Positions 15,219 to 18,765 of a stretch of 64,000 nt of DNA are shown here, one piece after another. Origin of the DNA: Tangfeifania diversioriginum (lineage in GTDB: Bacteria; Bacteroidota; Bacteroidia; Bacteroidales; Prolixibacteraceae); assembly GCA_945873105.1 (NCBI GenBank), contig CAMCBW010000020.1:1-64000 (forward strand), given 5' to 3'. Within the stretch, counting starts at the first letter, position 1, and each line of letters begins with the position of its first letter. The notes under the pieces are model-generated. The model was given only the letters and a program-made list of their open reading frames with translations. It was not told the DNA's origin and did no database searches. A program made the translations under genes and the position numbers.

Positions 15219-16409
15219 ATGACCAGAAAAATCTTCTTTTTCAGCGCCCTGCTTTTCGCCTGTTTTGGCGGCGGAGCGCAAAACACAGTGACCTCCAAAG
15301 CCATTGTCCAACAGGAAATTATCTTTCCTTACCAGGATGAACACACCCACGGCAGCTCCATCGTTCAACTGCCAAACGGCGACCTGCTGGCCGCCTGGTT
15401 CCAGGGAAGCGGTGAGCGCACTGCCGATGATGTGCACATCATGGGTGCCCGGCAGAAAAAAGGGACAACGGCATGGACCACCCCTTTCCCGATGGCCGAT
15501 ACAAAAGGCATTCCCGATTGTAATCCGGTTCTCTTCCTCAACAAAGAGGGGAAACTCTTCCTCTTCTGGATTGCCGTTCAAGCCAACCAGTGGCAATATT
15601 CCCTGCTTCGCTTCCGTACTTCTGCAAATTTTCAGGCAGAAGGGGCACCTCTCTGGGATTGGCAGGATGATATCCTGCTAAAACCGGACGACAGCTTCGC
15701 TACGGAGGTGATCAAAAAGCTGAAGGAGGCCGGCGACACTCCTGCAGGATGGGCAGCCTATGCGCCCAAATACGACGACATGATCATCGAAGCCAGCAAG
15801 GACAAGATGAAACGCAGCTTCGGCTGGATGACACGCATTCATCCCATCACCCTGACCAATGGAAGAATCCTGCTACCGCTCTACTCCGATGGCCTCAACA
15901 TGTCGCTGGTGGCAATATCGGACGACAATGGCACCACATGGAGACCCAGCCTTCCGATCGTCGGCCGCGGACCCATCCAGCCTGCCCTGGCTGTCAGGAA
16001 GAGCGGAGAGGTGGTAGCCATCATGCGCGACAGCGGGGATGCACCCGGCAGAGTTTGGATGAGCAGCTCCGGCGACCAGGGAGAATCCTGGTCCCTGGCA
16101 AAAAAGACAGAGATCCCCAATGAGGCAAGTGTCGAGCTCCATGTGCTGAACGACGGGACCTGGGTTTACTTCGGCAACGATATTTCGGATGGCCGTTACC
16201 AGCTGTCACTCTACCTCTCCAACGATGAAGGAAACAGCTGGTACAAAAAAGAGGTGATCGAATTTTCCCCCGACAGAAAGGCAAGTTTCTCCTACCCCTG
16301 CCTCATTCAGAGTTCCGACGGACTAATCCACATCTCCTACTCCCACTCCATGGGTAGCAAGAATGAATCTATAAAGCACGTTGTGATTGATGTGAATAAG
16401 TTAAAATAG
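15219..16409 (+). CDS. Secreted sialidase-like BNR-repeat protein
   Basis: The 396-residue protein has a signal peptide (to about GGGAQ) and a six-bladed propeller reading with three Asp boxes: SDDNGTTW, SGDQGESW and SNDEGNSW. HTHGSSIVQLPNGDLLAAWFQGS near 42-65 and RIHPITLTNGRILLPLY near 205-222 match the BNR_2/exo-sialidase-like superfamily. A typical GH33 arginine triad with an FRIP motif is not visible, so true sialidase activity is doubtful. These proteins often act on other acidic sugars. Probably exported and active in glycan breakdown together with the upstream genes. Confidence 0.75.
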   Translation: MTRKIFFFSALLFACFGGGAQNTVTSKAIVQQEIIFPYQDEHTHGSSIVQLPNGDLLAAWFQGSGERTADDVHIMGARQKKGTTAWTTPFPMADTKGIPDCNPVLFLNKEGKLFLFWIAVQANQWQYSLLRFRTSANFQAEGAPLWDWQDDILLKPDDSFATEVIKKLKEAGDTPAGWAAYAPKYDDMIIEASKDKMKRSFGWMTRIHPITLTNGRILLPLYSDGLNMSLVAISDDNGTTWRPSLPIVGRGPIQPALAVRKSGEVVAIMRDSGDAPGRVWMSSSGDQGESWSLAKKTEIPNEASVELHVLNDGTWVYFGNDISDGRYQLSLYLSNDEGNSWYKKEVIEFSPDRKASFSYPCLIQSSDGLIHISYSHSMGSKNESIKHVVIDVNKLK

Positions 16410-16613
16410 TAAGTATGAAACGAGCATGGACCAAGACAACCAAAGGCGATGTAAATCAATTTCGAGTTCCATACGTACGAACAGACATTCAATTATTTAC
16501 CTATAATACTTACGTGTGAAACTGAAATAATTGGACTGCCTTGTAGTTAAACCTTTCAATGACAAGTTCTATCAGGAGTGGTGGAACCAAATGTTTCAAT
16601 AAAGAAATATTGA

Positions 16614-16653
16614 ATGGGTCTGGCAGAAGGAAAATACTCTCACCAGACCCATA
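16614..16653 (-). terminator. Hairpin downstream of the bacteriocin-like operon
   Basis: ATGGGTCTGG and CCAGACCCAT pair over 10 bp around a 19-nt loop, about 17 nt beyond the stop codon of the last small gene on the minus strand. The exit side on that strand is U-rich but interrupted. It is the likely end of the operon. The rest of 16410-16613 has no convincing gene. Confidence 0.55.
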
Positions 16654-16669
16654 TTTTCCACAATTCTAC

Positions 16670-16798
16670 TTAATGTGAAACCCTGAAGATTAAATCTCCG
16701 AATCTAACTCCAAGCTGAAAAATAAAGTAAATAGACAGGATCACCGCTATTAGTAGAAGGATCCGTTTGTTTTTTACAACAAATCTTGATATTTCCAT
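16670..16798 (-). CDS. 42-residue single-span membrane peptide of the bacteriocin-like operon
   Basis: An uninterrupted small frame starts at ATG 16798 and ends at TAA 16670-16672. It has a short basic N-terminus (ISRFVVKNKR), one strong transmembrane stretch (ILLLIAVILSIYFIF) and the tail QLGVRFGDLIFRVSH. That tail parallels the end of the neighbouring double-glycine peptide (ELGKATGDFIYQVTH): both fit the pattern x-L-G-x3-G-D-x-I-x2-V-x-H. It has no double-glycine leader, so it would stay in the inner membrane. It starts 7 nt after the stop of the previous gene. An immunity or self-protection role is a hypothesis. Most gene callers would drop it for size. Confidence 0.65.
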   Translation of the reverse strand: MEISRFVVKNKRILLLIAVILSIYFIFQLGVRFGDLIFRVSH

Positions 16799-16805
16799 AA
16801 TTTTA

Positions 16806-17000
16806 CTAATGAGTTACTTGGTAAATAAAATCACCAGTAGCTTTCCCTAATTCAAAAATAGCAAGGGCAGCACCTGCGATAGCCCCAATTGCGATAAAAT
16901 GAGGCAATAGTACCCAGCTTCCGCCGGTCGTTAACAAACACTCTTCATGTGTTAATGGAACAAACACAGACTCTGAAACCAGAGAGATTGAAGTTTTCAT
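16806..17000 (-). CDS. Double-glycine leader peptide, bacteriocin-like (second of operon)
   Basis: From ATG at 17000 this encodes 64 residues. The first 27 form a leader ending LLTTGG, with acidic/hydrophobic spacing of the double-glycine type (HEECLLTTGG). The predicted mature part is 37 residues, starting SWVLLPHF, with a Gly/Ala-rich helix (IAIGAIAGAALAIFELG) and a GDFIYQVTH end. Small helical peptides with GxxxG-like patterns are typical of class IIb two-peptide bacteriocins, and peptides of this appearance occur in Bacteroidota. A longer frame from a TTG at 17027 is possible, but it would overlap the upstream gene and lengthen the leader unusually. No peptidase-ABC transporter lies in the window. 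Confidence 0.75.
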   Translation of the reverse strand: MKTSISLVSESVFVPLTHEECLLTTGGSWVLLPHFIAIGAIAGAALAIFELGKATGDFIYQVTH

Positions 17001-17020
17001 AATCGATATGTATTTGTTTT

Positions 17021-17218
17021 TCAGCAAAATGTGGTAAAGACATTGGATGACTGATCTTCCTCAGCCGCCTCTTTATATCCTACATAAACACCTGCAGCAA
17101 AAATGCATCCTGCAATTATCCAGGCAGCAGTCTTAGCAGAAATAGCGACACCAAGAATCACCACGGGAAAAAAACCGCCCGTGATATTCCTTAATTCCAA
17201 TTCACATAGATCATTCAT
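17021..17218 (-). CDS. Double-glycine leader peptide, bacteriocin-like (first of operon)
   Basis: The 65-residue product starts MNDLCELELRNITGG, a textbook short double-glycine leader (L...EL..I.GG), cut after residue 15. The mature 50-residue part is hydrophobic (FFPVVILGVAISAKTAAWII) with GYKEAAEE after the helix and a Cys at the very C-terminus plus one inside the helix (AGCIFAAG), so a disulfide is conceivable. The helix-then-GYKEAAE arrangement resembles class IIb-type peptides annotated in other Bacteroidota. It is the promoter-proximal gene; 20 nt separate it from the second peptide gene. Confidence 0.75.
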   Translation of the reverse strand: MNDLCELELRNITGGFFPVVILGVAISAKTAAWIIAGCIFAAGVYVGYKEAAEEDQSSNVFTTFC

Positions 17219-17301
17219 AACTTTATTTATATTAAGATCTCAAATAAACACCTTGCTTTATTTAACGTGTTACAAGTATTGCACGCGCAGTACTACTGTA
17301 A

Positions 17302-17332
17302 CAAAGTTACGGGTGTTCACTCTCATAATAAA
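17302..17332 (-). promoter_or_regulatory. Promoter of the bacteriocin-like operon
   Basis: On the minus strand TAACTTTG (17302-17309) matches the Bacteroidota -7 consensus TAnnTTTG exactly, and TTTA (17329-17332) lies 19 nt upstream, the expected spacing for the -33 TTTG element. Transcription would start near 17296, leaving a leader of about 75 nt. The -7 element sits in a small palindrome GTAACaaaGTTAC that could bind a regulator. The rest of 17219-17481 has no gene. Confidence 0.55.
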
Positions 17333-17481
17333 GTAGGGAACGAAATATTTTCTAAATATTTATGCTGTTTTTGTAATCAATCTATTCAACATTAGAAAGC
17401 CCAAAGGGTATTTCTAATATCAACCGATAACAAGTAATAGGTTCATTTGTAGTTACTTTACTAATTTTACCTCACTTGTCC

Positions 17482-18765
17482 TTACTCGCCCACTTTTTTG
17501 TGTCCGTGACGATCTCCCCGATCCCTGTGCCGGAAATCCTTCTTGGCAGGAGCCCTGCGCTCTCCGCCTCTTCCACCTCCGCTGGAGGATCTGGGAGCCA
17601 TTTTTCTTCTGGCTGATGGGTTGTAGAGTGGTCCCTCTCCCATGCCAGCAGGAAGTGGGATCTTGAGGATATCCCGCTCAATCAGCTCTTCAATCTTTCT
17701 GAAGTCGTGCATGTCGTTGTCGGAGATGAGCGTAATGGCAACTCCCGACTGGGAAGCACGGGCCGTACGACCAATCCTGTGCACATAATCTTCCGGATCA
17801 CGGGGTACATCATAGTTCATCACCAGATCGATCGAATCGATGTCAATACCCCTCGAAACGATATCGGTAGCCACCAGGATCTGGGTCTCCCGATTCTTGA
17901 AGCGCAGCATTACCTCCTCACGCTCCTTTTGCTCCAGATCCGAAAGCATGCCATCTGCCGAAAAGCCCATCCTGCGGAGTTCCCTGACCAATCCGTTTAC
18001 ATTGGCCTTTCGCGAGGTAAAGATCAAAATACTCTTGTATTCCGTCTTCCCTTTCAGCAACTCCTTGATCAAAGGCACCTTTTGCCCTTCGTAAACCAGG
18101 TAGGCAGCCTGCACAATATTTTCAGCAGGCTTGGAGATGGCAATGTTGATCTGTTCAGGATTCTTCAGGATCATCCCGGCCATCTGCCGGATCTTGGGTG
18201 GCATCGTGGCAGAAAACAACAAGGTTTGACGAACCACCGGAAGCTCTCCAACAATCCGCATGATGTCATCGAAGAAACCCATGTCCAGCATCCGGTCTGC
18301 CTCATCGAGAATCAAGGTCTGAATGGTGCTGAAATCTGAATATTTCATGTTGATGTGCGAAAGAAGCCTGCCGGGGGTGGCAACGATAATATCGGCACCC
18401 TGCACCAGGGCCGATTTCTGCTGGTCAAAGGCGGCTCCCACTCCCCCACCATAAACAGCCAGTGAAGAGGCTCCGGTAAAATAGGAGAACCCCTCTATCT
18501 GCTGGTCAATCTGCAAAACAAGCTCCCTGGTAGGGGCAATGATAAGGGTGTGCATGCCGGTGTGTCCCTCCCTGGAGATGTTGTTAAGAATGGGAAGAAG
18601 GTAGGCTGCCGTTTTGCCGGTTCCTGTCTGCGCACAGGCAATCAGGTCCTTCCCCTCCATGATCACAGGAATGGCAAACTCCTGGACAGGGGTACATTTT
18701 TCGAAACCCATGGAGGACAAACCATCCAGGACATCGTGGGTAAAATCAAAATCTGTGAAATTCAC
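17482..18765 (-). CDS. DEAD-box RNA helicase (RhlE-like)
   Basis: The 427-residue protein has the full DEAD-box set: Q-motif region (FTDFDF...GFEKCTPVQ), Walker A AQTGTGKTAA near 46, PTREL, VATPGRLL, DEADRMLDMGF, SATMP, ATDIVSRGIDID and HRIGRTAR. The C-terminal 60 residues are Arg/Lys/Gly-rich (SSGGGRGGERRAPAKK), an RNA-contact tail as in RhlE/CsdA-type enzymes. It probably unwinds RNA in ribosome assembly or decay. The exact subfamily name is not certain in Bacteroidota, so no symbol is given. Confidence 0.93.
   Translation of the reverse strand: MNFTDFDFTHDVLDGLSSMGFEKCTPVQEFAIPVIMEGKDLIACAQTGTGKTAAYLLPILNNISREGHTGMHTLIIAPTRELVLQIDQQIEGFSYFTGASSLAVYGGGVGAAFDQQKSALVQGADIIVATPGRLLSHINMKYSDFSTIQTLILDEADRMLDMGFFDDIMRIVGELPVVRQTLLFSATMPPKIRQMAGMILKNPEQINIAISKPAENIVQAAYLVYEGQKVPLIKELLKGKTEYKSILIFTSRKANVNGLVRELRRMGFSADGMLSDLEQKEREEVMLRFKNRETQILVATDIVSRGIDIDSIDLVMNYDVPRDPEDYVHRIGRTARASQSGVAITLISDNDMHDFRKIEELIERDILKIPLPAGMGEGPLYNPSARRKMAPRSSSGGGRGGERRAPAKKDFRHRDRGDRHGHKKVGE

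Follow-up and report, generated by a model that had tools for sequence, protein, structure and literature searches.

The window, i.e., the whole stretch of 64,000 nucleotides that was analysed, comprises positions 1-64,000 of contig CAMCBW010000020.1 in assembly GCA_945873105.1 of Tangfeifania diversioriginum. This assembly is denoted the own genome, and C1, C16, C20, C21, and C31 are contigs in it. According to the sequence and its list of open reading frames (ORFs), three successive minus-strand genes, p1, p2, and p3, encode 65, 64, and 42 residues and are separated by gaps of 20 and 7 nt, in agreement with the three-gene operon proposed in an earlier sequence-only reading. The p1 gene (17021..17218, minus strand) encodes a peptide with a double-glycine leader, MNDLCELELRNITGG, and the GxxxG motif GVYVG in its mature helix. 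The p2 gene (16806..17000, minus strand) starts with ATG, a TTG at 17027 being likewise open as an alternative start that gives a longer frame; its mature helix contains GKATG, and the mature part ends in ELGKATGDFIYQVTH. The two leader ends of the earlier reading, NITGG in p1 and LLTTGG in p2, are both found in the sequence. The product of p3 (16670..16798, minus strand), a candidate immunity protein, is leaderless and has a single transmembrane (TM) helix, with a mean hydropathy of 2.8 in the TM window and an N-terminal charge of +3, from which an N-in orientation is expected. The GC content of 300-bp windows is 34-39% within the trio region and 46-60% in the flanking genes, which are a DEAD-box helicase gene upstream (named from its motif) and, next downstream of p3 and on the opposite strand, a gene for a BNR-repeat protein.

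On the 3' side of p3 lies a terminator-like hairpin (stem at 16614..16652, minus strand), which is not immediately followed by a long run of T. Its folding energy of -25.6 kcal/mol (z -3.1) is equalled by three of 200 shuffled sequences, so that the terminal hairpin noted earlier is borne out. A terminator scan that requires a T run does not list it and gives two matches, both within p2, and an Rfam search of 16400-17500 gave no match up to E 0.5.

Upstream of p1 there is a palindrome-like promoter element of 26 bp, TTCCCTACTTTATTATGAGAGTGAAC (17315..17340, minus strand), which is common to other double-glycine modules. It is accompanied by a candidate -7 box, TAACTTTG (17302..17309, minus strand), in which TAAcTTT is conserved among the aligned elements; the Bacteroidota -7 consensus is TAnnTTTG. 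Of the promoter with -7/-33 spacing that had been proposed, a candidate -7 part is present; a convincing -33 box was not seen, and a sigma-70 promoter scan found four sites against 3.9 in shuffled sequence, i.e., no signal. With at most three mismatches, the element is found in 17 of the 140 family genomes, at 20 places in all; a control with the reversed pattern gave none. At 17 of these places (three are without) an ATG-started double-glycine ORF follows 116-127 nt after the element, the distance in the window being 122 nt; 13 of the 20 places belong to the loci that supplied the pattern, and of the seven new ones four have such an ORF. Besides the window, the own genome has the element at C16:33488, C21:98, C31:4, and C31:1028 (loci L157, L112, L154, and L150). 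A DNA search of the genus with the upstream block gave 19 matches, of which nine were read, two (the window and G007:C247) were known, and eight weak ones (29-32 bits) were left out. The ends of the element, TTC(A/C)CT...AGTGAA, form an imperfect palindrome by eye, and its arms seem to vary together in L123 and L033, which suggests an operator; that the HTH gene beside the exporter described below encodes its regulator is a guess. Several modules also have a second stretch, similar to GTAACGTTACGCG, in their 5' leaders. The occurrence of one element before several different double-glycine modules likely reflects a bacteriocin regulon.

Homologous trios, bacteriocin class, and exporter

Relatives of p1 were sought by searching a two-row p1 alignment against the genomes of named species. 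Among 191 pattern matches there were two relatives, L087 in a metagenome-assembled genome labelled 'Bacteroidales bacterium' (one and the same locus as L045) and L086 in Pontibacter sp. FD36. Both loci have relatives of p1, p2, and p3, in the same order and on the same strand as in the window, so that the homologous trio by which the operon was to be judged has been found. When the genes of the three trios are compared in pairs, codon positions 1 and 2 are more conserved than position 3 in nine of nine comparisons (e.g., 0.74/0.77/0.45 at positions 1/2/3 for p1, own against Pontibacter, and 0.43/0.60/0.36 for p3), a pattern that fits purifying selection, the identity of p3 between trios being only 22-26%. 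Since relatives occur in equal order and strand in two genomes, and since codon positions 1 and 2 are the better conserved ones, the trio is more than a chance arrangement of frames. When p2 alone was searched against the relatives set at E 0.01, none of the 99 genomes other than the own one had a relative, and none of the 34 pattern stretches found with p1 in viral contigs is a relative.

The class of the peptides was tested with the NCBI family TIGR03949 (lactobin A/cerein 7B family, class IIb), which has a cut-off of 21.5 bits. The p1 peptide of the window scores 18.9 bits, narrowly below the cut-off, p2 has no match in NCBIfam, and p3 has none of note. For the relatives, the values are 23.7 and 31.6 bits (p1) and 21.9 bits and no match (p2). 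Three of the four relatives accordingly pass, and in Pontibacter the trio is immediately preceded by genes for a C39-ABC exporter and an HTH protein; both facts support the earlier suggestion of a class IIb-like two-peptide system. The likeness to this class consists in the leader, the size, the GxxxG helices, and the adjacent pair of double-glycine genes, which is seen also in L086 and L087. The differences are that p1 falls just under the cut-off, that p2 is without a match, that the host belongs to the Bacteroidota, and that the exporter is encoded in trans. Locus L102 (G733:C1:2257027-2259077) has twelve double-glycine matches of the TIGR03949 type in a head-to-tail array with a spacing of roughly 180 bp.

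As had been stated, there is no exporter gene beside the trio in the window. In Pontibacter the trio directly follows genes for HlyD, a C39-peptidase ABC exporter, and an HTH protein, and the own genome has genes for HlyD, C39-ABC, and a small HTH-like protein in equal order at C1:243291-246949, with the C39-ABC exporter at C1:243598-245808, on another contig than the trio; this is a transporter of the kind that, according to the sequence-only reading, should be looked for elsewhere in the genome. The ABC proteins of the two organisms are 58% identical over 717 residues and the HlyD and HTH proteins 35%, and the own genome yielded just one further C39 protein, with 29% identity. From the presence of this homologue of the Pontibacter trio's exporter follows that a fitting exporter exists in trans. 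No peptide gene was found behind the HlyD, C39-ABC, and HTH genes on C1, and the own HTH-like protein itself matches no Pfam family. Two distant Bacteroidota thus have a small HTH-type gene, a candidate regulator of the element, immediately after the C39-ABC exporter (L005:19292-19612 and L086:5569-5904; 106 and 111 residues, 35% identical).

Among the other members of the genus, the helicase gene is present in six of seven. In G002, G003, G005, and G006, only 45-195 bp separate it from the BNR gene and the module is absent; in G004 there are other genes at the helicase site; and in G007 the interval is 1540 bp and holds a different trio. The 131 bp before p1 are 75% identical between the own genome and G007, whereas the coding DNA of the two trios has short matches only, the best being 13 bp at the starts of the third genes. 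These third genes are somewhat alike in their first part (score 35, both beginning with MEIS), and therefore some of the likeness may be due to common descent. A second chromosomal site, at L157, L144, and L146, also has differing double-glycine modules in sister species, as at the helicase site; the gene beside it (roughly 381 residues) we take to be decarboxylase-like. The best reading of the locus, from its sequence, is that of an exchangeable two-peptide cassette that would encode a class IIb-like bacteriocin, a class that is already known.

Matched tails of peptides and third genes

When the C-terminal 17 residues of p3 (16673..16723, minus strand), ending in IFQLGVRFGDLIFRVSH, are compared with those of p2 (16809..16859, minus strand), ending in IFELGKATGDFIYQVTH, the BLOSUM62 score is 50, which is reached by none of 5000 shuffles. 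For the last 16 residues, with the comparison anchored at the C-terminus, the match is reached by none of 100000 shuffles and, when residue classes are kept in the shuffling, by 18 of 100000. The corresponding score of p3 against p1 is only 21 (232 of 5000 shuffles). The match between p2 and p3 is retained in both homologous trios (scores 54 and 53, 0 of 5000 shuffles each), and in the module on own contig C21 the third gene and a peptide match with a different tail and a score of 86. The likeness of the third gene is confined to a single one of the two peptides in the window, C21, L086, L087, and G007. Of 17 look-alikes, with starts chosen by hand, 14 carry a positive charge N-terminal to the TM window, as does the presumed CbnZ discussed below; the charge is negative in Pc512, Pontibacter, and G580a. 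The positive charge is in line with an N-in/C-out topology, as predicted for these proteins. The earlier statement that no immunity gene is attached to the peptides is accordingly not supported: p3 is the best candidate for one, with a tail that copies the tail of p2 in the way third genes do elsewhere.

How general this matching is was evaluated with loci gathered by TIGR03949 in 26 of 140 family genomes (E 0.05), 14 of 393 order genomes (E 0.02), and 19 of 395 phylum genomes (E 0.005). The tail of each small membrane ORF that has a double-glycine neighbour on the same strand was ranked against the tails of its neighbours and against peptides from other loci. In the first, stricter version of the test (30 loci, the window included), an own neighbour came first for three of 37 ORFs, with 1.30 expected. 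Since real pairs overlap and since homologous modules score each other, an overlap of 60 nt was thereafter allowed and other-locus peptides homologous to the own one were excluded. Then 13 of 95 ORFs had an own neighbour first, with 1.47 expected (12 loci dropped as duplicates), and with longer stretches of largely identical loci (53 loci, duplicate ORFs dropped) the outcome was 13 of 140, with 1.96 expected; the loci of these later versions overlap largely, so that the versions are independent neither of each other nor of the idea, which was born from the window and these loci. One of the 13 pairs (L048) has no convincing double-glycine peptide, and without it the count is 12 of 140. A score of at least 34 is attained by 11 of the 140 small membrane ORFs, in 10 loci; the null resamples average 0.63 with at most 6, and none of 2000 reaches 11. 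The Pontibacter pair is outside these counts, as the leader pattern missed its p2.

The matched tails are of several types. GxxxG-type tails occur in the window, L087, L107, and L089, and by hand in L086; others are GxxxGxxxG...HIL (own C21), GYxDGRxDKH (L088), and EGxKIG (L108), in addition to L114; and tails of the form [DN]W[DE]xxK, here called NWD-type, occur in L115, L116, and, more weakly, L105. The GxxxG motif is contained in the copied tails of the window, C21, L087, L088, L107, L108, and L089, while NWD-type tails are without it. Taken singly, the NWD-type pairs are weak. In G007 the end of the third gene product, NNWDYLKQVIANLFR, matches that of the first peptide, NDWENFKKGFMSAFH, with 22 of 5000 shuffles reaching the score; in G002 the number is 104 of 5000 (53 for the partner peptide, the better match of the two, both being about equally weak), and in G006 it is 1752 of 5000, which is not significant. 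There are also modules of the same regulon in which the third gene is not a look-alike, namely C31, G001, G004, and G007:C140. Behind the common element in L150/L154 (C31, where the module stands as two copies in tandem), L143, L145, L172, and L149, the third gene encodes 59-86 residues with, by eye, about two TM helices, and such genes are possibly a second kind of immunity gene.

On own contig C16 there is a single double-glycine gene; a lone small NWD-type protein ending in GNWDKIKTFVINAI is encoded 1.3 kb away from the element, with a 216-residue ORF in between. An NWD-type profile was built from six peptides; it detects the known C16 peptide, which a query with a single peptide had missed. 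With this profile the members in G002, G006, and G007 score 80-88 bits, and in the own genome no NWD-type peptide appears: there are leader-type matches of 15.6-26.5 bits only (the first peptides of C21, C20, C16, and C31) and two matches of at most 12.2 bits inside larger frames. From this follows that the shield-like gene on C16 stands without its peptide in the assembly. G002 and G006 have NWD-type peptides beside what is apparently the same neighbour gene as on C16. Judged by its sequence, the lone C16 protein is what a retained, orphan immunity gene would look like. In L072/L089 (G580:C12) and L169 (G155:C466) several small ORFs with one TM helix follow each other; some of them have tails of the NWD or GxxxG type, with no matching peptide nearby in the stretch read, and these runs are possible orphan immunity arrays.

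Proposed immunity by a look-alike of the peptide

We consider it probable, by a modest margin over even chance, that the locus encodes a two-peptide bacteriocin and that a membrane-anchored look-alike serves as its immunity protein, p3 being the candidate and immunity being inferred. To exemplify how this could work, p1 and p2 would be made with double-glycine leaders, and the HlyD/C39-ABC operon at C1:243.6-246.9 kb, acting in trans, would cleave and export them. They would come together in a competitor's inner membrane, and their GxxxG helices would assemble into a pore. In the producer, p3 would remain as a single N-in/C-out helix, the outer end of which bears the GxxxG helix face and the tail of p2. 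The arriving p1 (alternatively p2, or p2's docking site) would be bound by p3 in an unproductive complex, comparable to the poisoning of a holin by its antiholin. In phage lysis, such a near-copy in the membrane poisons the assembly of the pore, and the likeness to p3 is an analogy of mechanism only.

The copied part of p3 is a C-terminal tail, which may be the docking part, and several class IIb bacteriocins have known receptors, as stated in the accessible part of PMC8538875. The protein could protect by occupying a membrane receptor used by p2, as a receptor look-alike, rather than by pairing with the peptides; this is unlikely, as several copied tails contain the helix-pairing GxxxG (NWD-type tails being without it) and no receptor candidate is known. 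Even less probable is a role of p3 as an additional, third bacteriocin without a leader, or as a helper in the membrane by which p2 is retained until its export, the tail likeness then being merely a gene duplication. Leaderless bacteriocins do exist, and p3 could descend from a copy of p2, but it has a membrane anchor and no leader, and the C16 look-alike stands alone without a matching peptide in its genome (with L072 and L169 as further candidates), where a helper would hardly be kept. That the peptides are a secreted signal pair, with p3 as sensor or brake and no antimicrobial function, we regard as the most improbable of these readings. Double-glycine leaders also serve pheromones, and the common promoter element implies coordinated control; however, the ORFs adjoining the trio include no kinase/regulator pair, and the long hydrophobic GxxxG helices, the class IIb family matches, and the module exchange better fit warfare. 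The signalling alternative of the sequence-only reading is thus left without support of its own.

Of the known systems, the look-alike immunity proposed for p3 is best compared with that of carnobacteriocin XY from Carnobacterium maltaromaticum, for which, according to the part of PMC6957408 that was accessible, the proven immunity protein CbnZ has 42 residues and one TM helix in N-in/C-out orientation and gave a 250-fold gain in resistance. This system, too, has two double-glycine peptides and a very short, one-TM third gene product of the same length as p3; it differs by being Gram-positive, and a look-alike is not mentioned in the accessible text (PMC6957408). An unannotated ORF of 42 residues behind cbnX and cbnY in two plasmids fits CbnZ by length, place, and L41 and is presumed to be it. 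Its match to the tail of CbnX is weak (138 of 5000 shuffles, rank 6 of 112), and its scores against third genes, reached by 1132 (own p3), 2630 (Pontibacter), and 58 (Pc512) of 5000 shuffles, give no sequence relationship between p3 and CbnZ. AbpIM and the presumed CbnZ were tried as further look-alike examples and rejected, AbpIM having no tail match and CbnZ only the weak one; neither protein therefore carries the copy rule over to lactic acid bacteria. The CdzC/CdzD/CdzI system of Caulobacter is, in the accessible part of PMC5380434, likewise a Gram-negative two-peptide system with leaders, a T1SS, and a small membrane immunity protein, and differs in that three TM helices are predicted for CdzI, which is without obvious homologues, the peptides are larger and contact-dependent, and the exporter is adjacent. 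With one TM helix in p3 and the candidate exporter on another contig, the locus is not of the Cdz type, and CdzI was rejected as a known look-alike on account of its three TM helices (PMC5380434, same part). Bacteroidetocins share the phylum, the double-glycine leader, and the C39-type ABC exporter, and differ in being class IIa-like, in having other accessory genes, and in that their authors, in the accessible text, found no immunity protein (PMC6671954).

In the parts of these papers that were accessible, the mechanism of class IIb immunity is termed a mystery (PMC6957408), and finding the immunity genes of double-glycine systems in Gram-negative bacteria is said to be difficult (PMC5380434). 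What would be new here is the candidate look-alike immunity gene, which recurs with matched tails and appears to be swapped as part of a cassette; no description of such a protein was found in the literature searched, most subscription journals being outside reach. More tentatively, and at somewhat less than even chance, the principle could be a general one in Bacteroidota: pore assembly would be poisoned by a copy, anchored in the membrane, of the helix and tail at the C-terminus of one of the cell's own peptides, with the tail alone setting immunity, cassettes would be exchanged behind one promoter element with one exporter in trans, and lone copies would be kept as shields against absent peptides. 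If the look-alike rule is true, immunity genes and their specificity can be read from sequence, and the mechanism can be tested by a swap of the 17-residue tail. The common promoter element and the trans exporter suggest the presence of several exchangeable cassettes in a single organism, and when this is the case, genomes could serve to predict relations of kinship and rivalry between Bacteroidota.
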